Source: an uncultured Aureispira sp.
Lineage (GTDB): Bacteria; Bacteroidota; Bacteroidia; Chitinophagales; Saprospiraceae
Assembly: GCA_905480485.1 (NCBI GenBank)
Contig: CAJQQM010000014.1
Span: 52,802-116,801 of the forward strand
Length of the DNA stretch: 64,000 bases
Direction of reading: 5' to 3'
Every line of letters begins with the position of its first letter. The first letter of the stretch is position 1. Positions 909-17,587 of the stretch are shown one piece after another. Position numbers and translations under genes: made by a program. The notes under the pieces were generated by a model. It was not told where the DNA came from, did no database searches, and saw only the letters and a list, made by a program, of their open reading frames with translations.

Positions 909-2288
909 ATGAAAACCAATCGAAGAAATTTTCTCAAAGCAATGGCATCTGTAAGTCTTGGGTTCTCAGGCCTAAAGACGTTCGCAGCTACTGCCGAAAC
1001 GCATCGTTTGGTCGAAGGATTTGGTCCTTTACAGGCACAAGGGATTTTGAAATTGCCCGCCGGATTCCACTTCAAAATCATTGCTAAAAAAGGAGCTTTA
1101 ATGGACGATGGTTTATTGTTGCCGGGCAGGGCTGATGGAATGGGTGCCTTCGAGGCTTCTAAGGGGCGTGTTTTACTGATTCGCAACCACGAAAATTCAC
1201 CTGGCTATTTGGTCGATTCACCATTTGGATATCAGAACGAACACCTAGCCAAGGTTCAAAAGGGCAAATTATTTGATGATGGTTACGGGAAATACCCTCA
1301 TTTGGGCGGTACTACTACAAGTATTTACAACGAAAAAACACAGGAGGTAGAATACTGTTTTATGAGTTTATCCGGAACGGCACGAAATTGTGCAGGAGGT
1401 ATTACGCCCTGGAGGTCTTGGCTTAGTTGCGAAGAATACACCCTTGGAAAAGATAAAACACACGCTCGAAAACACGGCTATGTTTTTGAAGTCCCCGCCA
1501 CCGAAAAAAAATACCTAAAGTACCCTGTGCCTTTACGTGCGATGGGGCGTTTTAATCATGAAGCAGTTGCCGTTGACCCTCAAACCGGAATTGTTTATCT
1601 GACGGAAGACCGACACGAGGGGCTTTTTTATCGCTTTATACCAAAGGTTAAAGGGCAATTACATGAAGGAGGTCGTCTACAGGCTTTGGCCTTTGTTTGG
1701 AAAGAAAAGATGGATACGCGAAATTGGCAGAAATCTTCAGTAAAACCATCTACTCGATATGCTGTTCGTTGGATTGATTTAGACAATGTAGACGGTGAAA
1801 AAGATGATTTGAGATTTAGGGGGCACAAAAAAGGAGGCGCTGTTTTTGCACGTGGTGAAGGAATATGGTTTGGCAACAAAGAGTTGTATTTTGCTTGTAC
1901 CAATGGAGGGAGAACCAAAACGGGGCAATTGTTTAAATATATCCCAAGTCGATACGAAGGTCAGGCAAAAGAAAACAATGCTGCCTATTACCCACGCTTA
2001 GAATTATTTGCAGAACCCAACAATACTAAGCTGCTTCGCTATTGCGACAACCTAACAATCGCACCTTGGGGAGATGTTGTCTTTTGTGAAGATGGCTTGC
2101 ATCCACGTATTTTTGGAATTACCCCCAAAGGTAATTTTTATCAAATAGCCGAAAATATAGGTCATTTATCCGAATTTGCAGGGCTTTGCTTTTCGCCATC
2201 GGGCAAAACACTTTTTGTAAATATTCAAGTACCTGGTCTTACCTTGGCTATTACCGGAAATTGGAGTCACTTAAAGACTGATTCATGA
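909..2288 (+). CDS. PhoX-family (DUF839) phosphatase with Tat-type signal
   Basis: 459 residues. The N-terminus NRRNFLKAMASVSLGF carries a twin-arginine motif followed by a short hydrophobic stretch, so Tat export is likely. PhoX/DUF839 hallmarks are RNHENSPG, GGTTTSIYN, NCAGGITPWRSWLSCEE (this Cys region helps bind iron in characterised PhoX enzymes), KHGYVFEVP and FNHEAVAVDPQTGIVYLTEDR. PhoX enzymes are Ca/Fe-dependent periplasmic or surface phosphomonoesterases that scavenge phosphate; substrate and activity here are inferred. The stop overlaps the start of the next gene (ATGA), so the kinase-like gene is translationally coupled to it. A TATCTTTA box at 883-890 resembles a -7 element, but no good -33 was seen. 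No Pho box was recognised. Confidence 0.85.
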   Translation: MKTNRRNFLKAMASVSLGFSGLKTFAATAETHRLVEGFGPLQAQGILKLPAGFHFKIIAKKGALMDDGLLLPGRADGMGAFEASKGRVLLIRNHENSPGYLVDSPFGYQNEHLAKVQKGKLFDDGYGKYPHLGGTTTSIYNEKTQEVEYCFMSLSGTARNCAGGITPWRSWLSCEEYTLGKDKTHARKHGYVFEVPATEKKYLKYPVPLRAMGRFNHEAVAVDPQTGIVYLTEDRHEGLFYRFIPKVKGQLHEGGRLQALAFVWKEKMDTRNWQKSSVKPSTRYAVRWIDLDNVDGEKDDLRFRGHKKGGAVFARGEGIWFGNKELYFACTNGGRTKTGQLFKYIPSRYEGQAKENNAAYYPRLELFAEPNNTKLLRYCDNLTIAPWGDVVFCEDGLHPRIFGITPKGNFYQIAENIGHLSEFAGLCFSPSGKTLFVNIQVPGLTLAITGNWSHLKTDS

Positions 2289-3250
2289 AACCCACTTTCG
2301 AACACTATCCAGCATTTTTAGAACACTATCAAGTTGATATTACACAATCACTCGACCCGGCTAATTTTGGTTCGGTTTACAAGGCTGTTGACAAAAATGG
2401 GAACAGTTTAGTGGTCAAATCAGTTGAGATACATCCTAATTATGATATAGGTCTTTACAGCAAACGGTTTCAGGGTTCTCAGTTGATTCAACACCCTAAT
2501 TTGTTGGCATATCACGAATTTTTTGAATTCAAAGGGGAGATGATTACTCAAGTGGTGACGATGCCTTATCGGTCAATGGGCCCCCTTAGCGAACAGCATG
2601 ACTTGACCGACGCAACCAAAAAATTAATTATTGATCAAATAATTGATGCGCTTGACTACCTACATCAGCATGATATGGTGTGGCAAAACTTATCGTCCAA
2701 ACATGTTTTACTTCAATTTATGTATGGCAATCATATCCCTCAAATTATAAATTATGGCAATCAAATGCCCATCCCTCTAGCCTATTTCGCCGATTATGAA
2801 TACCTTGCCCCTGAACAATTTGACCCGCATTATACACCCGATTCAAGAAGCGATATATGGGCCTTTAGTGTGTTGATTTATAAAGTTTGGACCGGGCGAT
2901 TACCCTTTGGGCAAAAATCGGCTACCTTGCCCAATTCAAAAATAGAAGCACGGATTTTGGGAGATTGGACACCAGGATTGTTTGAAAATATTCCAGAACC
3001 TTATCGAAGCATCGCTCAAAAAGGGTTAAAACGAAAAAAAGATAGTCGATGGAACAATTGTGGAGAAATTATTGCTGTAATAAAAAACTACCAAGCAAAA
3101 AAACAGTTTATAGAACCGGTAGTTGTCTCAACAGCGACTACTGAACAGCGGATTATAAGACGAAAACCGAATCGTCCGATTAATTGGTGGTTGGTGTTGT
3201 TGTTTTTAGCAACAGCGGCCTTATTAGGATATTGGGTAAATCATTTGTAA
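2285..3250 (+). CDS. Tail-anchored protein kinase-fold protein, probable pseudokinase
   Basis: 321 residues. Residues about 10-270 follow the Ser/Thr kinase fold: a glycine-loop remnant NFGSVYKA, the beta-3 lysine in VVKSV, YLAPEQF (APE motif), SDIWAFSVLIYKVWTGRLPF (helix F) and a late Arg in KKDSRWNN. The catalytic loop reads HDMVWQNLSSKHVLL where HRDLKPxN is expected, and the metal-binding DFG reads NYG, so both catalytic aspartates are missing. The C-terminus has one hydrophobic segment (WWLVLLFLATAALLGYWV) after a basic stretch, suggesting a tail anchor with the kinase domain in the cytoplasm. It overlaps the PhoX stop by 4 bases and lies just ahead of the PorP/SprF-like gene and gldK. 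Kinase fold is confident; loss of catalysis is inferred from the residues. Confidence 0.8.
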   Translation: MKPTFEHYPAFLEHYQVDITQSLDPANFGSVYKAVDKNGNSLVVKSVEIHPNYDIGLYSKRFQGSQLIQHPNLLAYHEFFEFKGEMITQVVTMPYRSMGPLSEQHDLTDATKKLIIDQIIDALDYLHQHDMVWQNLSSKHVLLQFMYGNHIPQIINYGNQMPIPLAYFADYEYLAPEQFDPHYTPDSRSDIWAFSVLIYKVWTGRLPFGQKSATLPNSKIEARILGDWTPGLFENIPEPYRSIAQKGLKRKKDSRWNNCGEIIAVIKNYQAKKQFIEPVVVSTATTEQRIIRRKPNRPINWWLVLLFLATAALLGYWVNHL

Positions 3251-3300: not shown

Positions 3301-4275
3301 ATGAACTGCATTAAACTAACATTATTAAGTACCCTGATATTATTGATATCAAATTCTGTGCAAGCCCAACAACCTGCTCAGTATTCTATGTTTATGCTCA
3401 ATAAATATCAGTACAATAATGCATACAATGGTCTCGATGAATCCTTGTCACTTACGGGTGTTTTTAGAAAACAATGGGTGGGCTTAAGTGGCGCCCCTCT
3501 CAACGTAAATTTCAACGCGCATTTACCTATAGAATACATAAGCAGTGGTGTGGGGCTTGGTTTTGAATATGATGTTATAGGGGCCTACAAAAATCTATCG
3601 GTTCGTGCTTCGTACAGTTACATACTAGATTTTGGCAAAAGTGGCAAGTTGTCGCTTGGTGTAGCCGGACGTTTTTTGCAAAAAAACCTTGATGGTACTA
3701 AATTGCTAACGCCCGACGGAGACTATGAATCTGGCATCAACCACAACGACCCAATTGTGCCGGTTGCGAATGAATCGGGAACTTCTTTTAGTTTTGATGC
3801 CGCGGCTTACTACAAACATAAGTTTTTTGAGCTCGGTATTGCTGCGATCAATTTGACACAACCCACCTTACAATTCGCAACAGATGCCCAAGTTAGGTAC
3901 AATCGTGCCTATTTTTTGAATGCATCAGGAACGATCAAATTAAACGATAAATTTGATTTACTTCCTTCTTTCTTGCTCAAAACTGATTTTGTAAAATTTC
4001 AGCCAGAATTGGCCTTGCTGCTAAAGTGGAATGATACCGTCTTTGGGGGCGTCGCGTATAGGGGATATGACGTTCTTTCTACGGATGCATTCGTTTTTAT
4101 TGCTGGAATGCAAATTACCCCTAATCTACTACTCGCCTATTCCTATGATTTGTCTATTGGAAGCCTAAATTCTTACAATAGTGGCTCTCATGAGGTTGTC
4201 TTGAATTACAATCTTAACAAAAAAATTGGAAAAGAAATTCCCTCTAAAATTATTTTTAACCCAAGGTTTTTATAA
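3301..4275 (+). CDS. PorP/SprF-family type IX secretion system membrane protein
   Basis: 324 residues from the ATG at 3301. The ORF track starts 13 codons earlier at a TTG, but the ATG gives a clean signal peptide (MNCIKLTLLSTLILLISNSVQA, then QQPAQYSMFML). The mature start QPAQYSMFMLNKYQYNNAYNG and the following FRKQWVGLSGAP are typical of the PorP/SprF family, predicted outer-membrane beta-barrels. Members help T9SS secretion, and SprF-like members are needed for export of B-type CTD cargo such as SprB. It sits directly upstream of gldK. It may be cotranscribed with the phosphatase and pseudokinase, since the gap after the kinase stop is only 50 bases. Confidence 0.85.
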   Translation: MNCIKLTLLSTLILLISNSVQAQQPAQYSMFMLNKYQYNNAYNGLDESLSLTGVFRKQWVGLSGAPLNVNFNAHLPIEYISSGVGLGFEYDVIGAYKNLSVRASYSYILDFGKSGKLSLGVAGRFLQKNLDGTKLLTPDGDYESGINHNDPIVPVANESGTSFSFDAAAYYKHKFFELGIAAINLTQPTLQFATDAQVRYNRAYFLNASGTIKLNDKFDLLPSFLLKTDFVKFQPELALLLKWNDTVFGGVAYRGYDVLSTDAFVFIAGMQITPNLLLAYSYDLSIGSLNSYNSGSHEVVLNYNLNKKIGKEIPSKIIFNPRFL

Positions 4276-4541: not shown

Positions 4542-5804
4542 ATGAAAAAACAAAATTTAGCAATTTTATTTGTCGCGTTATTCTTTGCCTCTTGTGCAAA
4601 GCTAGACAGCGGACAATTGATCGGTGTACAAGACAGACCCGATTGGAATCCTATTCAGCCATACGGTATGCAATATGTTCCTTCAGGTACCTTGCACATT
4701 GGGCCAAGTGATCAAGATGTCAACCATGCATTGGTTCAACGTCCAAAACAAATCTCTATTCAAGGGTTTTTTATGGATGATACAGAAATCACCAACAATG
4801 AATATCGTCAGTTTGTCAATTGGGTACGAGATTCAATTGCTCACATTCAGTTAGGTCATACTAGAGAATATCCCGGTGGAGTTCAAGGTGTTGATTGGGA
4901 ACAAGAAATTAATTACGAGCCGGGTGGTGACTTAGACGCCATGTTTTACCAAGGAGATGAGCAATTTGGCGGACAACGCAATTTAGACGTACGTCAACTC
5001 GTGTTTGATTACCAATGGTATGATTGGAAAAGCGCCGCACAAGACTTCTCTTGGGCTGACGATTACAATAGAGCATCTAAAGAAAAACACAACCGTTCAG
5101 ATTATATCAAAAAGGATGCTACACGCATTTATCCTGATACTTTGGTATGGGTTAGAGACTTTACCTACTCTTATAACGAACCAATGACTAGAAACTACTT
5201 CTGGCACCCTGGTTTTGATGATTACCCTGTTGTAGGTGTTGCCTGGAAACAAGCTAAAGCTTTTTCATATTGGAGAACGAATCTATGGAATGGTTTCGAA
5301 GAAGTGAATACAGAAGACTTTAGATTACCTACAGAACACGAGTGGGAATATGCTGCTCGCGGCGGACGTGAATTAGCGCCGTTTCCATGGGGTGGATACT
5401 ATGTCAGAAATACCAAAGGATGTCTCTTGGCAAACTTTAAGCCTGGACGTGGTGATTACCCTGCCGATGGTGGTTTATATACCGTAAAAGCAGATGCTTA
5501 TTTCCCGAACGATTATGGATTGTTCAACATGTCAGGTAATGTAGCTGAATGGACTTCATCGGCTTACTACGAAAATGCTTATTCTTTCTTGCACGATTTA
5601 CAACCTGATATCCGTTTTGACGCACAAGAAGAAGATCCTTCTGCTTGGAAAAGAAAAGTTATTCGCGGTGGTTCATGGAAAGATATTATGTATTTCATGC
5701 AAACGGGTACGCGTCATTGGGAATTTCAAGATACAACCAAGTGCTACATTGGCTTCCGTAACGTATTGACTTTCCTTGGTCGTTCGATGAACGATTTTAA
5801 CTAG
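4542..5804 (+). CDS. gldK: Gliding motility/T9SS lipoprotein GldK
   Basis: 420 residues. The N-terminus MKKQNLAILFVALFFASC is a lipoprotein signal with the lipidated Cys at residue 18. The rest is the formylglycine-generating-enzyme-like (SUMF1/FGE-sulfatase) fold typical of GldK/PorK: MQYVPSGTLHIGPSD, FFMDDTEITNNEYRQFV, YPVVGVAWKQAKAF, FRLPTEHEWEYAARGG, NMSGNVAEWTSSAYY and VIRGGSWKD. GldK forms a periplasmic ring with GldN attached to the outer membrane above the GldLM motor. gldL follows after 300 bases that contain a strong hairpin. The order K-L-M-N matches the standard T9SS operon, so the assignment is secure. Confidence 0.95.
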   Translation: MKKQNLAILFVALFFASCAKLDSGQLIGVQDRPDWNPIQPYGMQYVPSGTLHIGPSDQDVNHALVQRPKQISIQGFFMDDTEITNNEYRQFVNWVRDSIAHIQLGHTREYPGGVQGVDWEQEINYEPGGDLDAMFYQGDEQFGGQRNLDVRQLVFDYQWYDWKSAAQDFSWADDYNRASKEKHNRSDYIKKDATRIYPDTLVWVRDFTYSYNEPMTRNYFWHPGFDDYPVVGVAWKQAKAFSYWRTNLWNGFEEVNTEDFRLPTEHEWEYAARGGRELAPFPWGGYYVRNTKGCLLANFKPGRGDYPADGGLYTVKADAYFPNDYGLFNMSGNVAEWTSSAYYENAYSFLHDLQPDIRFDAQEEDPSAWKRKVIRGGSWKDIMYFMQTGTRHWEFQDTTKCYIGFRNVLTFLGRSMNDFN

Positions 5805-6104: not shown

Positions 6105-6851
6105 ATGAGTTTCATACATTCGCCTAAGTTCGCATATGTAAAAAACCTTATCATTGGTGTTGGAGCATCAGTTGTACTTGTAGGAGCACTGTTCAAAATT
6201 CAGAGTTGGCCATTTGCATCTGAGATGCTTACTGTTGGTCTTCTAACTGAAGCTTTCCTTTTTATTATGCTAGGAGTACTTCCTCCACACAAAGATTACT
6301 ACTGGGAACAATTATACCCTGGTTTAGATGTTGCTGGTGCTGATATTGCGATTACTAGTGGCCCAGTTGATTCTGCTACAGGTCCTTCTGTATCTGAGCA
6401 AAATGAAGCCTTAATCGAAGCTGTTAACGGAATGAAAGCAGCTGTTTCTCCACTTGAAAATCAGCAAACCCAAATGGTTTCTGAACTACAAGGAATGTCC
6501 AAAACGATGAAAAGCCTCGATATATTCGCAGGTCTTGATTTCGATGATGTAGGTAAAATGACGAAAGAAACAGGTAAATTTGTTTCTATCCTTTCAAACG
6601 CTATCCAAAATGTTGCTGATTCTGCAGAAGACGTAAATGTTTATAGAGAAGAGTTGACTAAATTAAACGGTAACTTGACGGACATGAACAAAGTATATGG
6701 TGGTGTAGTTACTGCTATGGAAGGTGTTAACGAAGTTGCTGCATCTGCGGCAGTTGTTAAAGAATACTCTGACAAATTAACTGAATTGAATGGTAATTTG
6801 GCAAGCATTAATAAAGTATATGGTGGTATGCTATCTGCTATGAAAGGATAA
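6105..6851 (+). CDS. gldL: Gliding motility/T9SS motor protein GldL
   Basis: 248 residues. Two transmembrane helices near the N-terminus (about residues 14-33 and 41-59) are followed by a long cytoplasmic region with helical repeats (ELTKLNGNLTDMNKVYGG, then KLTELNGNLASINKVYGG). The segment GALFKI...GLLTEA contains Lys31 and Glu49. These match the membrane-embedded Lys and Glu of characterised GldL that are implicated in using the proton motive force. GldL pentamers surround the GldM dimer helices to form the rotary motor. Only one gldL is present in the window, although gldM and gldN are each duplicated. Confidence 0.95.
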   Translation: MSFIHSPKFAYVKNLIIGVGASVVLVGALFKIQSWPFASEMLTVGLLTEAFLFIMLGVLPPHKDYYWEQLYPGLDVAGADIAITSGPVDSATGPSVSEQNEALIEAVNGMKAAVSPLENQQTQMVSELQGMSKTMKSLDIFAGLDFDDVGKMTKETGKFVSILSNAIQNVADSAEDVNVYREELTKLNGNLTDMNKVYGGVVTAMEGVNEVAASAAVVKEYSDKLTELNGNLASINKVYGGMLSAMKG

Positions 6852-6951: not shown

Positions 6952-8589
6952 ATGTCAATTCCTAAGGAACCAAGACAGTTGATGATTAATCTGATGTATC
7001 TGGTTTTAACCGCGATGCTTGCATTAAATGTATCAGCTGAAATTATAAACGCTTTTTTTATGCTCGATAAGGGTATAGATAAAAATAACAAGATTGTAGA
7101 GCACGCCGTTGAATCTGTTGTCTCTGGCATGGAAGAAACTGCCAAAACAAAGGTTCAGTATCAGCCATTGGTCGAAAAAGCCAAAGGTGCGAAAGATATT
7201 ACCAGCGGGTTCCACAAATATATAGATGAACTCAGAAACCGAATGGTAGAAGAGTCTGGAGGCGCCTATACGCTAGAAGACGCAACTGCTCAAGGCCATC
7301 CTGAATTAGAAGGTAAGCCGATGGGTAAAAAGGATAAAGATACTCCACAACGTATCTTTGTATCAGGTGATTACGGTAGCGAAAAAAAGGAGCCTCAAGG
7401 GGCTATTTTAGCCGATAAAGTCACTAAATTACGAAGTGCATATTTGGAATATGTATCTAGTTTGTGGGATGATGGTGGTATCAAAGGTACTATCTTTGCC
7501 GACCCTGACAAGAAGGCTGAAGCTATGAAAGAATTGGAAGCAGAGATGACACTTACTTCTGATGAAAAGTATAATCCGAAGAATCACGAAGGTAAAATAT
7601 GGGCTGAATATACATTCGGTCACATGCCTGTTGCTGCGGTGTATCCTATGCTTCGTAAGTTTCAGAATGATGCACGTACTTCAGAAGCTGCTGTTGTCAA
7701 CTTCTTAGCTTCTCAGATGGGTAAGTTGGAGATGAATTATGACAAATTTGACGTATTTTCACAATCAGCTAAGCCTTATATCCTTTTGGGAGAGACTTAT
7801 GAATCTGAAATTGCATTAGGTGCCTATTCATCTCAGGCTAAGTTCTCTGTATCCGTAGGAGGCAGATCACTTAAAATTGTAGATGGTAAAGCCAAGTATT
7901 CTGCAAGTGGTTCATCTGTCGGGCAGAAAACATACTCTGCTAAAATTTCTGTTTACAATCCGTTGACTGATGAGACTGAATCTTTCACAAAAGAGTTTTC
8001 TTACGAAGTAGGGCAACCTTCTGTAAACGTTTCTGCCGACAAAATGAACGTATTCTACATAGGTGTAGATAATCCTGTTACTGTTGCAGCAGCTGGAATC
8101 ACTTCATCTAACATGTCGGTATCTTTTACGGGATGTAAGAAAAAATCTCAGAAAAGTACTAGCTACGTTATTACGGCAGACAAGCCTGGTGAAGCAACTA
8201 TTAATGTGAAAGACAAATCCAATGGAAAAAGTTTTCCTTTCAAGTTTCGTGTAAAACGTATTCCGGATCCTGTAGTTCGTATGGGTAGAAAAACAGATGG
8301 TTTGATTGGTTCAGGTGAAATGAAAGCACAACCTGGTCTAATTCCATTTTTGGATAACTTTGATTTTGATGCTAAATGTCAAGTACAATCATACACGATG
8401 TACTACACGCGTAAGCGTCAAGACCCTGTTGAAATTGAAGGACGTGGTGGTCGTTTTACCGGAAAGGTATTGCAAGCTATCCGCGCTGCCAAACCATCCG
8501 ATCAGTACGCTTTTACTAACGTAAAGGCAAGATGCCCGGGTGATAAAGCTGCTCGTCGTGTAAACGGTCTAGCATTTAAAGTAAAATAA
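6952..8589 (+). CDS. gldM: Gliding motility/T9SS motor protein GldM (copy 1)
   Basis: 545 residues. The N-terminus MSIPKEPRQLMINLMYLVLT begins the single transmembrane helix (about 11-32) that sits inside the GldL pentamer; Arg8 corresponds to the conserved Arg just before the helix in other GldM proteins. The long periplasmic part contains the expected repeated beta domains, for example SVNVSADKMNVFYIGVDNPV and the C-terminal stretch FKFRVKRIPDPVVRMG...FDFDAKCQVQSYTMYYTRKR. GldM spans the periplasm and contacts the GldK/GldN ring. Its first 36 residues are identical to those of the second copy at 9827. Confidence 0.95.
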   Translation: MSIPKEPRQLMINLMYLVLTAMLALNVSAEIINAFFMLDKGIDKNNKIVEHAVESVVSGMEETAKTKVQYQPLVEKAKGAKDITSGFHKYIDELRNRMVEESGGAYTLEDATAQGHPELEGKPMGKKDKDTPQRIFVSGDYGSEKKEPQGAILADKVTKLRSAYLEYVSSLWDDGGIKGTIFADPDKKAEAMKELEAEMTLTSDEKYNPKNHEGKIWAEYTFGHMPVAAVYPMLRKFQNDARTSEAAVVNFLASQMGKLEMNYDKFDVFSQSAKPYILLGETYESEIALGAYSSQAKFSVSVGGRSLKIVDGKAKYSASGSSVGQKTYSAKISVYNPLTDETESFTKEFSYEVGQPSVNVSADKMNVFYIGVDNPVTVAAAGITSSNMSVSFTGCKKKSQKSTSYVITADKPGEATINVKDKSNGKSFPFKFRVKRIPDPVVRMGRKTDGLIGSGEMKAQPGLIPFLDNFDFDAKCQVQSYTMYYTRKRQDPVEIEGRGGRFTGKVLQAIRAAKPSDQYAFTNVKARCPGDKAARRVNGLAFKVK

Positions 8590-8666: not shown

Positions 8667-8701
8667 TTTATTTTTTGTTAATACTCAAAACAAATTTACT
8701 G

Positions 8702-9595
8702 ATGAATTTATATCAGAAATCTATACAACGCTTTTTCTTAGGTCTAGTACTTATTGCAGGAACTAATTTTTCTGTGATGGCACAGCCCGAGAATGAAACT
8801 AATACAAACGTTACAGAATCAGGTAACACAGATGAAGCACGTCCAAGAGACAATTTCTATGATCGCTATTTATACACGGAGAAAAGAGTCGTCACCTACG
8901 ATTTTATTCACGAGAAAGATGTATTTTGGGAAAGAAGAATATGGAGATTGATTGATATACGTGAAAAAATGAATCATCATTTTGGGTATGACAAAGAAGG
9001 AGAGTCTTTTATCGAAATTCTTTTGCAGCATGCTAAAGACGGTGACATTACCTTGTATCATGTATTTGACGATGAATTTACCCAGTCAATGACGCAAGAA
9101 GAAATGCAAAATATTGGTAGTTCTGTGGATACGATTATCACCTTCGATCCTGAAACATTTGAAGAAATAATTCAAGTAGTAGTCAATGATTTAAATCCTG
9201 ATGATATCAAGAAATATCGTCTCAAGGAAGTTTACTTTTTTGATGAAGAAAAGTCAGATTTAGATGTCAGAATATTGGGTATTGCACCTATTATCGATCG
9301 TGTTGATGATAACGGTAATTTTTTGAATTCAGGTCCTATGTTTTGGGCATATTACCCAGAACTACGTGATGTTTTAGCACGCCACGAATCTTTTAACCCA
9401 CACAATGACGCCGCAAGGATGAGTTGGGAAGATGTGTTTGAGGCTAGACTTTTTTCAAGTTATATTATCAAAGAATCGAATGTTTACGACAGAAGAATAA
9501 AAGATTACAAAACCAATCCTATGGATATGCTTTTGGAATCCGATAAATTAAAAGAGCAAATCTTCCATTTTGAGCACGATTTGTGGTCATACTAA
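8702..9595 (+). CDS. gldN: Gliding motility/T9SS protein GldN (copy 1)
   Basis: 297 residues from the ATG at 8702, nine codons inside the ORF-track call. This start gives a signal peptide ending near SVMAQ. Family motifs are RDNFYDRYLYTEK, DFIHEKDVFWERRIWRLID, LKEVYFFDEEKSDLDVRILGIAP and FWAYYPELRDVL. GldN joins GldK in the periplasmic ring of the T9SS. It follows gldM after a strong hairpin and is followed by another terminator and then the second gldM. A second GldN lies at 11568. Confidence 0.93.
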   Translation: MNLYQKSIQRFFLGLVLIAGTNFSVMAQPENETNTNVTESGNTDEARPRDNFYDRYLYTEKRVVTYDFIHEKDVFWERRIWRLIDIREKMNHHFGYDKEGESFIEILLQHAKDGDITLYHVFDDEFTQSMTQEEMQNIGSSVDTIITFDPETFEEIIQVVVNDLNPDDIKKYRLKEVYFFDEEKSDLDVRILGIAPIIDRVDDNGNFLNSGPMFWAYYPELRDVLARHESFNPHNDAARMSWEDVFEARLFSSYIIKESNVYDRRIKDYKTNPMDMLLESDKLKEQIFHFEHDLWSY

Positions 9596-9826: not shown

Positions 9827-11440
9827 ATGTCGATACCTAAAGAACCAAGACAGCTGATGATTAATCTAATGTATTTGGTGCTAACGGCTATGTTAGCGCT
9901 GAATGTTTCCGCTGAAATTATTAATGCCTTTTTTGCCTTAGATAAAGGCAACAACACGGCTATGCAAATTGTTAATCAACAACTCGATGAAACCGAAAAG
10001 AGTTTGGATGATTTGCTGGCAGACACCTCTAAATATAGATTTCGACCTATTGCAGCAGCGGTAGATGATGTACGGGAATTATCGGAATCTTTTATCAATT
10101 ATGTCCAACAACTTAGAGATAAGTTAATCGATGCGGGAGGCAACCGAAACGGTCTTATCGATGCTGCTGATTTTATAGACAACCAAGGACAACAAATACC
10201 AAAAGGTAAGAAAAACAAAGATATTGCTACCAGAATATTGGTCGAAGAATCTAACGGGGACTTACTCGAAAATGAAATCAGAAAAGTTCGTAGCAAGTAC
10301 ATCCAAATTTTTACTCAATTGTTGACCAAACACGGTCGACAGTTTGACCTAAAAGAACGTGAAATCAAAAATCGAATAGAAGCGATTAAAAAAAGTCTTA
10401 CGCTAACTGTCGGGGAGGAATGGAAACAAAGTGATAAAAAAAGTTGGGCTGATTTTAAATTCAGACAAATGCCCTTGGCGGCAGTACTGCCTTTATTAAG
10501 TCAAATTCAATCAAATGCTAAGAGCGCTGAAGCGACCTTAGTAAACGATATGGCCCTGCTTTCTGGAGGAAGGGTCATTGATTTTGATGCCTTCTTTCCA
10601 GTTATAAATGCCAAAAAAGCCTACGTTATTAAAGGAGAGCAATTTCAGTCAGAAATATCGATTGGCACCTATAGTTCGCAAATCAACCCTGAGGATATAA
10701 AATTAAAAGTGAATGGAATAGCCTTGAAGGTAGATAAAAACGGTAAGGCTATATTTAATCAAGCGGCAACTGGACAAGGTAAAAAGACCCTTCGTCTAAG
10801 TTGTGAGGTCAAAAATCCACTAAGCGGTAAAGTGACAAAAGGGGCTTCTATATTCGAGTATGAAGTAGGTATGCGTTCAGCAACTGTGTCGGCCGACAAA
10901 ATGAATGTATTTTATATCGGCGTAGACAATCCTATAACTGTATCCGCTTCTGGTGTGCCGTCCAATCAACTGAAGGTAACCATAAAAGGAGGTGAAATGA
11001 TTGGTAAAGGTGCTAAACGGGTGGTCCAAGTGACTCAGCCAGGAATAGCGACTGTTACCTTATCGGGTGGAGGTCTAGAAAGAACGGAATTTAAATTCAG
11101 AGTAAAACGGATTCCTGACCCAATTGTAACTATAAGTGGCAAAACCGATGGCATCATGAAATCCGGCAAATGGAGAGCTCAAATAGGCTTAAATCCCGAG
11201 CTAAAGAATTTCGATTTTGGGGCGCGTTGCAGTATTCAGTCTTACACCATGTATTATACCCCTAAACGCAAAGATGTTGTCAAATTACGTGGCGAAGGTT
11301 TGCGATTTAAAGGAGATATACTCAAGTTTGTCCGAAAAGCTAAACCCGGCGATCAGTATTTATTTACGGATGTTAAATGTAAATGCCCTAGTGATGTTGC
11401 AGGCAGAGATGTAAATGGTCTGGTATTCAATATTAAATAA
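9827..11440 (+). CDS. Second GldM paralogue
   Basis: 537 residues. The first 36 residues (MSIPKEPRQLMINLMYLVLT and on to the end of the helix) are identical to GldM copy 1, while codons differ and the periplasmic part has diverged. It keeps ATVSADKMNVFYIGVDNPI and the end FKFRVKRIPDPIVTISG...FDFGARCSIQSYTMYYTPKR. Full length with no frameshift argues for a working protein. The strict conservation of the membrane helix suggests it also fits into GldL, of which there is only one local copy. A typical terminator precedes it, so it probably has its own promoter, though none was clear in 9651-9826. Confidence 0.92.
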   Translation: MSIPKEPRQLMINLMYLVLTAMLALNVSAEIINAFFALDKGNNTAMQIVNQQLDETEKSLDDLLADTSKYRFRPIAAAVDDVRELSESFINYVQQLRDKLIDAGGNRNGLIDAADFIDNQGQQIPKGKKNKDIATRILVEESNGDLLENEIRKVRSKYIQIFTQLLTKHGRQFDLKEREIKNRIEAIKKSLTLTVGEEWKQSDKKSWADFKFRQMPLAAVLPLLSQIQSNAKSAEATLVNDMALLSGGRVIDFDAFFPVINAKKAYVIKGEQFQSEISIGTYSSQINPEDIKLKVNGIALKVDKNGKAIFNQAATGQGKKTLRLSCEVKNPLSGKVTKGASIFEYEVGMRSATVSADKMNVFYIGVDNPITVSASGVPSNQLKVTIKGGEMIGKGAKRVVQVTQPGIATVTLSGGGLERTEFKFRVKRIPDPIVTISGKTDGIMKSGKWRAQIGLNPELKNFDFGARCSIQSYTMYYTPKRKDVVKLRGEGLRFKGDILKFVRKAKPGDQYLFTDVKCKCPSDVAGRDVNGLVFNIK

Positions 11441-11567
11441 ATGCAAATTTGACTGTAGAGGGCAGCGATGTTGAATAGAATCGGATTGCTGTTCCCTTTA
11501 TGGTCTTTTTAAAGCTTTCATAGTTCAATTATAGGCTCTAATAATTTTAAAATTTAAACTATAAATC

Positions 11568-12416
11568 ATGAAAAAAATAACCTGTCTTGCTCTCATTATG
11601 GGAAGTCTTTTATCCGTCGCTTATGCTCAAAATAATCTGACCGAATCGGGTAATACCCCGCAACAAACCCCTAGAGACAATTTTTACAACCGCTATTTAC
11701 ACAAAGAAAAAAAAGTAATTGATCATGATTTTATCCATGAAAAAGATGTTTTTTGGGAAAAAAGAATTTGGCGTTTGATTGATATTCGCGAAAAAAGGAA
11801 TCACATATTTATGAATCCAATTCAACCCTTTGTGATGGTGTTGATTAATAGTGCTATTAATGGAGATGTGACCTTGTATCATGCCCTAGATGATGCTTTT
11901 TCGAATGCAATGACAGACGAAGAACGGAACTCAATACTGTACAAAAAAGATACAATTTGTACCTTTGATCCAGAAGATTTTTCTGAAATATGTGTACCGG
12001 TCATCAATGAGTTTAACCCCGAAGATGTTCAACAGTTTCGTCTAAAGGAAGTGTATTATTTTGACGAAGAAACATCGACTATGGATGTACGAATCTTGGG
12101 TGTTGCTCCGATTATTGAACGGTATGATGAAAATGGAAATTTTTTAAATTCTGGGCCTTTGTTTTGGGCCTACTATCCTGAATTAAGGAAGGTCTTGTCC
12201 AAGGTTGAAGTTAAAAATGATTTTAATGATGCAGCTCATTTTACCTGGGAGGATATATTCGAAGCAAGGTTGTTTTCGAGTTATATCATCAAATCATCCA
12301 ATATATTAGATAAACGTCTAAAAGATTCTTATTCCAGTCCAATGGCTATTTTATTAGAGGCCGAACAAATCCAAAACAAGCTTTTTTATTTTGAGCACGA
12401 TTTGTGGACCTACTAA
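11568..12416 (+). CDS. Second GldN paralogue
   Basis: 282 residues with signal peptide MKKITCLALIMGSLLSVAYAQ. It matches copy 1 across PRDNFYNRYLHKEKKV, DFIHEKDVFWEKRIWRLID, LKEVYYFDEETSTMDVRILG and FWAYYPELRKVL. GldN duplicates are known in other Bacteroidota (gldO in Flavobacterium). Here it is paired with a duplicated gldM, 127 bases upstream, which is less usual. It is followed by a terminator at 12430. Likely role: an alternative ring subunit working with the second GldM. Confidence 0.92.
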   Translation: MKKITCLALIMGSLLSVAYAQNNLTESGNTPQQTPRDNFYNRYLHKEKKVIDHDFIHEKDVFWEKRIWRLIDIREKRNHIFMNPIQPFVMVLINSAINGDVTLYHALDDAFSNAMTDEERNSILYKKDTICTFDPEDFSEICVPVINEFNPEDVQQFRLKEVYYFDEETSTMDVRILGVAPIIERYDENGNFLNSGPLFWAYYPELRKVLSKVEVKNDFNDAAHFTWEDIFEARLFSSYIIKSSNILDKRLKDSYSSPMAILLEAEQIQNKLFYFEHDLWTY

Positions 12417-16646: not shown

Positions 16647-17387
16647 TTACATACCTCCACTACAATTGAGGGTTTCTCCAGTAATATAACTCGATAGTTC
16701 AGAAGCTAAAAACAAAGAAATATTGGCAATTTCTTCTGTAGAACCAAAGCGTTTTAGTGCAGTAGCTTGAATCATTTGGTCTTTTATCTTTTCATCGAGA
16801 ATACCCGTCATGTCCGTTTCAATAAAACCAGGTGCGATAGCGTTACAGCGGATATTTCTAGACCCAACTTCTTGTGCCACTGATTTGGTAAACCCAATTA
16901 CACCTGCTTTAGAAGCTGCATAATTAGCCTGTCCGCCATTGCCTTTTATACCTACAATAGAAGATATATTGATAATAGAACCTCCTCTAGCTTTTAGCAT
17001 AGGACGCATGATGCATTTAGTGAAGTTGAAAACAGATTTAAGGTTGTTGTTCATTACATCATCCCAATTATCTTCAGACATACGCATGAGCAAATTATCT
17101 CTTGTGATGCCAGCATTGTTGACTAATACATCAATTTTACCAAAAACTTTTAGCACATCAGCAATAAGTGTTGTTGTTTGCTCTAAAGAACTCGCATCCG
17201 ACTTAAATGCTTGCACTTTTGTACCATATACTGAGGCCTGTTCAACAATTTTGTTGGCTTGTTCTTCCGAAGAACGATAGGTAAATGCTACATCTGCACC
17301 TTGTTCTGCAAATTTTTTGACGATGCCAGCACCTATGCCTCTTGACCCTCCTGTAATAATGGCAACCTTGTTCTCTAAAAGTTTCAT
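16647..17387 (-). CDS. fabG: 3-oxoacyl-[acyl-carrier-protein] reductase FabG
   Basis: 246 residues, a classical SDR. The NADPH-binding TGGSRGIGAGI is at the N-terminus, followed by NNAG, the catalytic Ser of IINISSIVG, YAASK (Tyr and Lys of the active site) and the FabG-type end ITGETLNCSGGM. It reduces 3-oxoacyl-ACP in fatty-acid elongation. Length and motifs match housekeeping FabG. It is transcribed alone on the minus strand with a good promoter at 17485-17492. Confidence 0.93.
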   Translation of the reverse strand: MKLLENKVAIITGGSRGIGAGIVKKFAEQGADVAFTYRSSEEQANKIVEQASVYGTKVQAFKSDASSLEQTTTLIADVLKVFGKIDVLVNNAGITRDNLLMRMSEDNWDDVMNNNLKSVFNFTKCIMRPMLKARGGSIINISSIVGIKGNGGQANYAASKAGVIGFTKSVAQEVGSRNIRCNAIAPGFIETDMTGILDEKIKDQMIQATALKRFGSTEEIANISLFLASELSSYITGETLNCSGGM

Positions 17388-17484
17388 AAAAAGTTATAAT
17401 TTTAAATGGGATATTATAATGTTATGTTTGGTTGAACCCATCTTAAGGGCAGCTTTAAAATGGCTTTTTAGTAGGTTCAATGCA

Positions 17485-17492
17485 CAAAGGTA
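17485..17492 (-). promoter_or_regulatory. -7 box of the fabG promoter
   Basis: On the minus strand the sequence reads TACCTTTG, an exact TAnnTTTG, about 100 bases before the fabG ATG. A TTGTTA about 20 bases upstream is a fair -33. Confidence 0.5.
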
Positions 17493-17587
17493 CAAACTTA
17501 ATTCTACCTAGCTAACAATTAGTCAGATTAATGAAATAAATTAGTAAACGAAGCTAAAACAGCGTATAAATTCAATTTCAAAAATCA

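Follow-up and report, generated by a model that had tools for sequence, protein, structure and literature searches.

A tail-anchored pseudokinase conserved beside the type IX secretion genes in one clade of Saprospiraceae

We analyzed a stretch of 64,000 nucleotides from an uncultured Aureispira sp., hereafter referred to as the window, and focused on a gene for a kinase-like protein with an uninterrupted reading frame (ATG start, TAA stop, 321 amino acids). The gene lies between a PhoX-family gene and the type IX secretion system (T9SS) genes, the first of which, porP/sprF-like, starts with an ATG at 3301 (Table 1). The preliminary description had placed an intact gene for a tail-anchored protein ahead of a PorP/SprF-like gene and gldK. 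All of this is borne out: the PF11751 and TIGR03525 matches lie directly downstream, the gene is also intact in relatives belonging to four genus codes, and the protein has a single C-terminal transmembrane (TM) helix (residues 301-320), with such a tail in all 15 complete orthologs.

Table 1. Features of the pseudokinase locus, with window coordinates
Feature	Position	Strand	Evidence
PhoX-family gene, Tat-like signal, ATGA overlap with pseudokinase gene	909..2288	+	PF05787 5e-76; upstream in 10/17 clade genomes
Tail-anchored pseudokinase gene, 321 aa	2285..3250	+	PF00069 1e-18; AlphaFold2 pLDDT 93.9; orthologs in 17/17 clade genomes
Codon of kept beta-3 Lys45	2417..2419	+	K in 16/16 orthologs
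Degenerate catalytic loop W133QNLSSKH140, replacing HRDLKPxN	2681..2704	+	Asp in 0/16 orthologs, in 27/27 of the nearest kinases; invariant Q134 and H140
N156-Y-G158 at DFG position	2750..2758	+	N 15, Q 1, D 0 of 16; Y157 16/16
Basic segment ahead of the TM helix, with the C-terminal tail anchor, R289-L321	3149..3247	+	15/15 complete orthologs; helix in model
porP/sprF-like gene, immediate downstream neighbour	3301..4275	+	PF11751 3.4e-56; TIGR03519 6.9e-64; adjacent in 16/16 testable genomes
gldK/porK	4542..5804	+	TIGR03525 1.2e-165
gldL/porL, inner-membrane motor	6105..6851	+	TIGR03513 1.4e-36
gldM/porM	6952..8589	+	TIGR03517 7.4e-72
gldN/porN	8675..9595	+	TIGR03523 8.8e-53

Comparison with the Pkinase profile PF00069 gave a match over residues 27-257 (68.1 bits, gathering cut-off 31.7), and the AlphaFold2 model, built from an alignment of 16 orthologs and 27 related kinases, showed a two-lobed fold of the Hanks kinase type and a separate C-terminal helix. 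A model from 8 orthologs alone reached a pLDDT of only 59 and was set aside; the model retained leans on the active kinases in its alignment, and its fine pocket geometry was not trusted. Foldseek returned protein kinases throughout the listed matches (top PDB E-value 3.7e-15; best TMt 0.80 among those listed). The protein is laid out as a kinase-like domain (residues ~10-270), a low-confidence linker (~271-295) and its one hydrophobic helix at the extreme C terminus, which is preceded by the basic segment RRKPNRP. A basic stretch stands before this helix in every complete ortholog (n = 15), only 1-5 residues follow the helix in the orthologs, and inspection of the sequence revealed no signal peptide. 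Given the basic segment ahead of the helix, the positive-inside rule predicts an N-in orientation, with the kinase-like domain in the cytoplasm, anchored to the inner membrane.

We then compared the catalytic motifs in an alignment of 43 sequences, comprising 16 distinct orthologs and the 27 nearest kinases. The replacement of HRD by WQNLSSKH and of DFG by NYG can be read directly in the window protein, as first described, and so can the retained beta-3 Lys, APE and helix-F motifs (K45, A175-P-E177 and D190-I-W192), of which Lys45, APE and Asp190 are kept, together with Arg255, in all 16 orthologs. The described loss of both catalytic aspartates proved general: the catalytic Asp (position 135), the DFG Asp (156; Asn in 15 orthologs and Gln in one) and also the alpha-C Glu (61; Arg in the window protein) are present in all 27 nearest kinases and in no ortholog, while the Mg-binding Asn (140) is His in all 16 orthologs and Asn in all 27 kinases. 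WQN is the form of the loop in the window's genus. Three losses go beyond the preliminary description, namely the alpha-C Glu, two Gly-loop glycines (24 and 26, gone in 16/16) and a shortened activation segment, the distance from the DFG position to APE being 19 residues in every ortholog vs 24-28 in the nearest kinases, a difference of 5-9 residues. No ortholog has the HRD Asp, DFG Asp, alpha-C Glu and Gly-loop of an active Ser/Thr kinase, and canonical phosphotransfer is predicted to be impossible for this kinase-like fold. The recurrence of these losses in 16 distinct orthologs rules out chance or sequencing error. A kinase fold without catalytic motifs is thus conserved across the orthologs, and pseudokinase status is strongly supported.

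An active enzyme whose catalytic residues have migrated, as in WNK kinases, would explain why the beta-3 Lys, APE and the helix-F Asp remain intact; such an enzyme is extremely improbable here, as across the 16 sequences no conserved Asp was seen close to the catalytic loop or to NYG and the Mg-site residue is invariably His. The altered pocket is itself conserved, with K45, Q134, H140, Y157 and G158 invariant and N156 present in 15/16, and the invariance of Q134, H140 and Y157 together with K45 indicates that the old pocket is still constrained. It might therefore have been repurposed, via K45, Q134, H140 and N156/Y157, to bind a nucleotide or another ligand or to catalyze a non-canonical transfer, and so to sense or modify a T9SS or envelope partner. 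The C-spine positions A43 (Ala in 14 orthologs, Val in 2) and L142 (16/16) are kept, which is compatible with this, and SelO and SidJ are atypical kinase folds that perform other reactions (PMC12599244). However, ATP binding is usually abolished once the alpha-C Glu, both metal-site residues and two Gly-loop glycines are gone, and pseudokinases diverged in all three motifs are nearly always without such binding (PMC12599244), although the VAIK Lys is kept here. We consider such repurposing distinctly unlikely.

We further examined how widely the gene is distributed. In whole-genome searches, each of the nine genomes examined from the window's genus code yielded an ortholog, where a peptide-pattern scan of contigs had recovered one relative only, and a profile search added eight genomes from three other genus codes (206-392 bits); one of the four genus codes is taken to contain Saprospira grandis WHT. 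Orthologs are thus present in 17/17 genomes of one Saprospiraceae clade. No further ortholog was found among the 398 Saprospiraceae genomes sampled, in which the other genomes scored at most 136 bits with the genus profile vs at least 206 for orthologs, and none appeared in samples of 299 genomes from the order and 396 from the phylum. A 195-bit match in another family of the order (G527) was rejected, since it proved to be a regular kinase with HRDLKPHN and DFG motifs, encoded at a distance from T9SS genes. GldK identity delimits the same 17 genomes (75-96% to the window GldK; all others at most 73%). The 16 distinct orthologs group together on one branch, separate from the active kinases, with 100/100 support, and dN/dS is 0.04-0.17 for close pairs, so that this is a maintained protein under clear purifying selection. 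We take it as the first example of a pseudokinase family specific to this clade. A kinase gene decaying toward loss could be suspected from the missing catalytic residues and from an evolution faster than that of PorP and GldK. This reading is largely refuted, and has next to no probability left, given genes intact in 17 genomes of four genus codes, the low dN/dS and the invariant replacement residues.

Genomic linkage to the T9SS is strict. In 16/16 genomes in which the contig continues, from all four genus codes, the pseudokinase gene stands directly upstream of porP-gldK-gldL-gldM-gldN on the same strand, and the order pseudokinase-porP-gldK is unbroken wherever visible; one genome (G357) was left out of the count because its contig ends inside the pseudokinase gene. 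Surveyed in this way, the relatives at the same locus likewise lack both aspartates, and none has an HRD or DFG Asp. When window open reading frames of at least 150 aa were compared with S. grandis-type loci (tblastn), only the pseudokinase, porP and gldK/L/M/N matched, which places the pseudokinase in the conserved block and not in its flanks. Outside the clade, no kinase was found in ~4.7-6.7 kb examined upstream of 16 other Saprospiraceae T9SS loci, 15 of which contain porP-gldKLMN; in most of them a DUF255/YyaL-like thioredoxin-type gene (named by eye from sequence) precedes porP. As these outgroup loci have no kinase upstream of porP, the gene was probably gained once, beside porP, in the ancestor of the clade. 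Taken together, conserved linkage to the core T9SS genes is strongly supported across the clade, and comparative genomics establishes a conserved, T9SS-linked pseudokinase family for which a role in the system is a reasonable inference.

The gene could also be a neighbour by history, selected for another membrane or envelope function and staying in a conserved block, perhaps sharing expression without contact. We regard this as rather unlikely, though it draws on several observations: the linkage reflects one ancestry, the spacers to porP range from 5 to 274 bp (the L039 value, taken from a stop placed slightly off, being approximate), and PhoX, which is not known to act in the T9SS, is often found at the locus as well. 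Against it, PhoX has been lost from the locus repeatedly while the pseudokinase-porP junction was never broken, and the block common with S. grandis-type loci consists of the pseudokinase and T9SS genes only. The coupling to a phosphatase gene, which had formed part of the original argument, holds as to the ATGA overlap and fails as a functional argument. PhoX carries an RRNFLK Tat-like signal and is therefore probably exported, acting outside the cytoplasm; it adjoins the pseudokinase with variable spacing in 10 genomes and was not found in the flank examined in the other seven. With a linkage looser than that between pseudokinase and porP, PhoX as a partner phosphatase was set aside.

The T9SS drives secretion and gliding, and control of the GldLM motor at its cytoplasmic face is so far poorly understood. 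The outer membrane carries PorP, a membrane protein, and GldK, a lipoprotein, whereas the motor in the inner membrane is built from GldL and GldM (PMC12421860; established knowledge). A kinase-like domain facing the cytoplasm at the inner membrane would thus have within reach, among core T9SS parts, only GldL, with its large cytoplasmic domain, and the TM helix of GldM, which makes GldL the most likely direct partner. The earlier reading of a membrane sensor or scaffold for T9SS assembly is putative and fits this anatomy. In our proposal, the clade-specific pseudokinase would have no catalytic role; at the cytoplasmic face of the GldLM motor it would serve as a docking scaffold or allosterically regulate the assembly or activity of the motor, in the manner of EssB/YukC in the type VIIb secretion system (T7SSb). 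We regard this role as the likeliest of the readings considered, though evenly balanced between right and wrong. In its favor are the unbroken linkage, the place in the block shared with S. grandis-type loci, universal presence in the clade, loss of the aspartates, monophyly, dN/dS, TM tail and kinase-free outgroup loci. On the other side, the linkage is one ancestral event in one clade, so that the 16 loci are not independent, the porP spacers (5-274 bp) make co-transcription no more than possible, the pseudokinase evolves faster than PorP and GldK, and other T9SS lineages work without it, which makes it at most accessory. Clade-specific changes in GldL comprised two fixed differences only, with no convincing signal of co-adaptation; the counts for all five proteins (GldK 7, GldL 2, GldM 1, GldN 3, PorP 1) are confounded by one shared branch and were not used.

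EssB/YukC of the T7SSb offers the closest working analogue: it is a TM pseudokinase without ATP binding that serves as a hub for the interactions of a secretion machine (PMC9600267, PMC12599244). Like the window protein, this Firmicutes protein is encoded among secretion-machine genes and has, ahead of its single TM helix, a pseudokinase domain in the cytoplasm, with a degenerate Gly-loop and a short activation loop (PMC9600267, PMC12599244). In contrast, EssB belongs to a different secretion system and phylum, has lost the VAIK Lys that is invariant here as Lys45, and continues into an extracytoplasmic domain where the orthologs, encoded beside T9SS genes, end 1-5 residues after the helix. 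No EssB entry occurred among the best 50-60 PDB matches listed in sequence and fold searches, all of which were generic kinases, and EssB was compared by description. EssB also meets the FHA domain of EssC, whereas no FHA domain was found in the window genome, and an FHA readout as in EssC or FhaA was discarded. Serving as allosteric partner or decoy of an active kinase is a common role of eukaryotic pseudokinases. The same role beside an active Hanks-type kinase is very unlikely here and was rejected: in the window genome, which is 96% complete, neither a close active paralog nor an FHA domain to read phosphopeptides was found. The three other PF00069 matches above cut-off in this genome are large proteins of a different type, with the motifs VLVDxKPDN and VDxDS. 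Large kinase-like proteins of the window's genome (L032, L033 and L034), likewise unlike the pseudokinase in type, carry VLVD[MLF]KPDN and VDxDS motifs.

Other known families resemble the window protein in part. The MviN pseudokinase domain of Mycobacterium (ActPs3) is likewise degenerate in all catalytic motifs, membrane-linked and tied to an envelope process (PMC12599244), but its family occurs mostly in actinobacteria, as a fusion with a transporter-like protein that is read by FhaA, none of which was seen here. ActPs1-3, GLW, CP1, DYD and DLHK are also bacterial Hanks-fold pseudokinases, GLW with a C-terminal TM region (PMC12599244); the window protein, with WQN, a kept Lys and NYG at the DFG position, is set apart from them by review descriptions only. 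The review of bacterial pseudokinase families leaves Bacteroidota unmentioned (PMC12599244). PorK/GldK is a precedent within the T9SS for an enzyme fold (formylglycine-generating enzyme, FGE) repurposed as a structural hub (PMC12421860), although it is an outer-membrane periplasmic lipoprotein of the universal core with an unrelated fold. Nearest in sequence are Ser/Thr kinases of the Hanks type from Saprospiraceae and its order, which share 17-26% identity with the window protein; these 27 keep HRD, DFG and the alpha-C Glu and fall on a separate branch.

No paper on a T9SS-linked pseudokinase was found in the open literature searched, with subscription papers outside the search. The T9SS takes part in predation in Aureispira (review of PorKN structure, PMC12421860), and S. 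grandis, a predator, glides and hunts by ixotrophy (PMC10508125). Linkage throughout a marine clade that includes predators suggests an unrecognised accessory part or regulator of the T9SS, and a clade-restricted pseudokinase fixed beside the motor genes is a concrete candidate for GldLM control. More tentatively, and with somewhat less than an even chance, the protein may be an undescribed inner-membrane pseudokinase subunit of the T9SS motor, confined to the Saprospira clade, with an EssB-like role in gating or assembling GldLM, in which case two unrelated machines would have recruited dead kinases independently.

Several minor features of the motor genes were also recorded. The window GldL has 248 aa with an internal C-terminal repeat (LNGNLTDMNKVYGGVVTAM / LNGNLASINKVYGGMLSAM); the GldL of other clade members has 202-211 aa and no such repeat. 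A second gldM-gldN pair follows gldKLMN at window positions 9827-12416 (TIGR03517 1.2e-67, TIGR03523 2.5e-47). After gldM2, short open reading frames in L042 (L042:16406-16801 and 16808-17545) match only the C-terminal, D4-like and GldN-binding part of GldM, with similar matches in L041, L043 and L045, and these short frames start with hydrophobic export-like segments.
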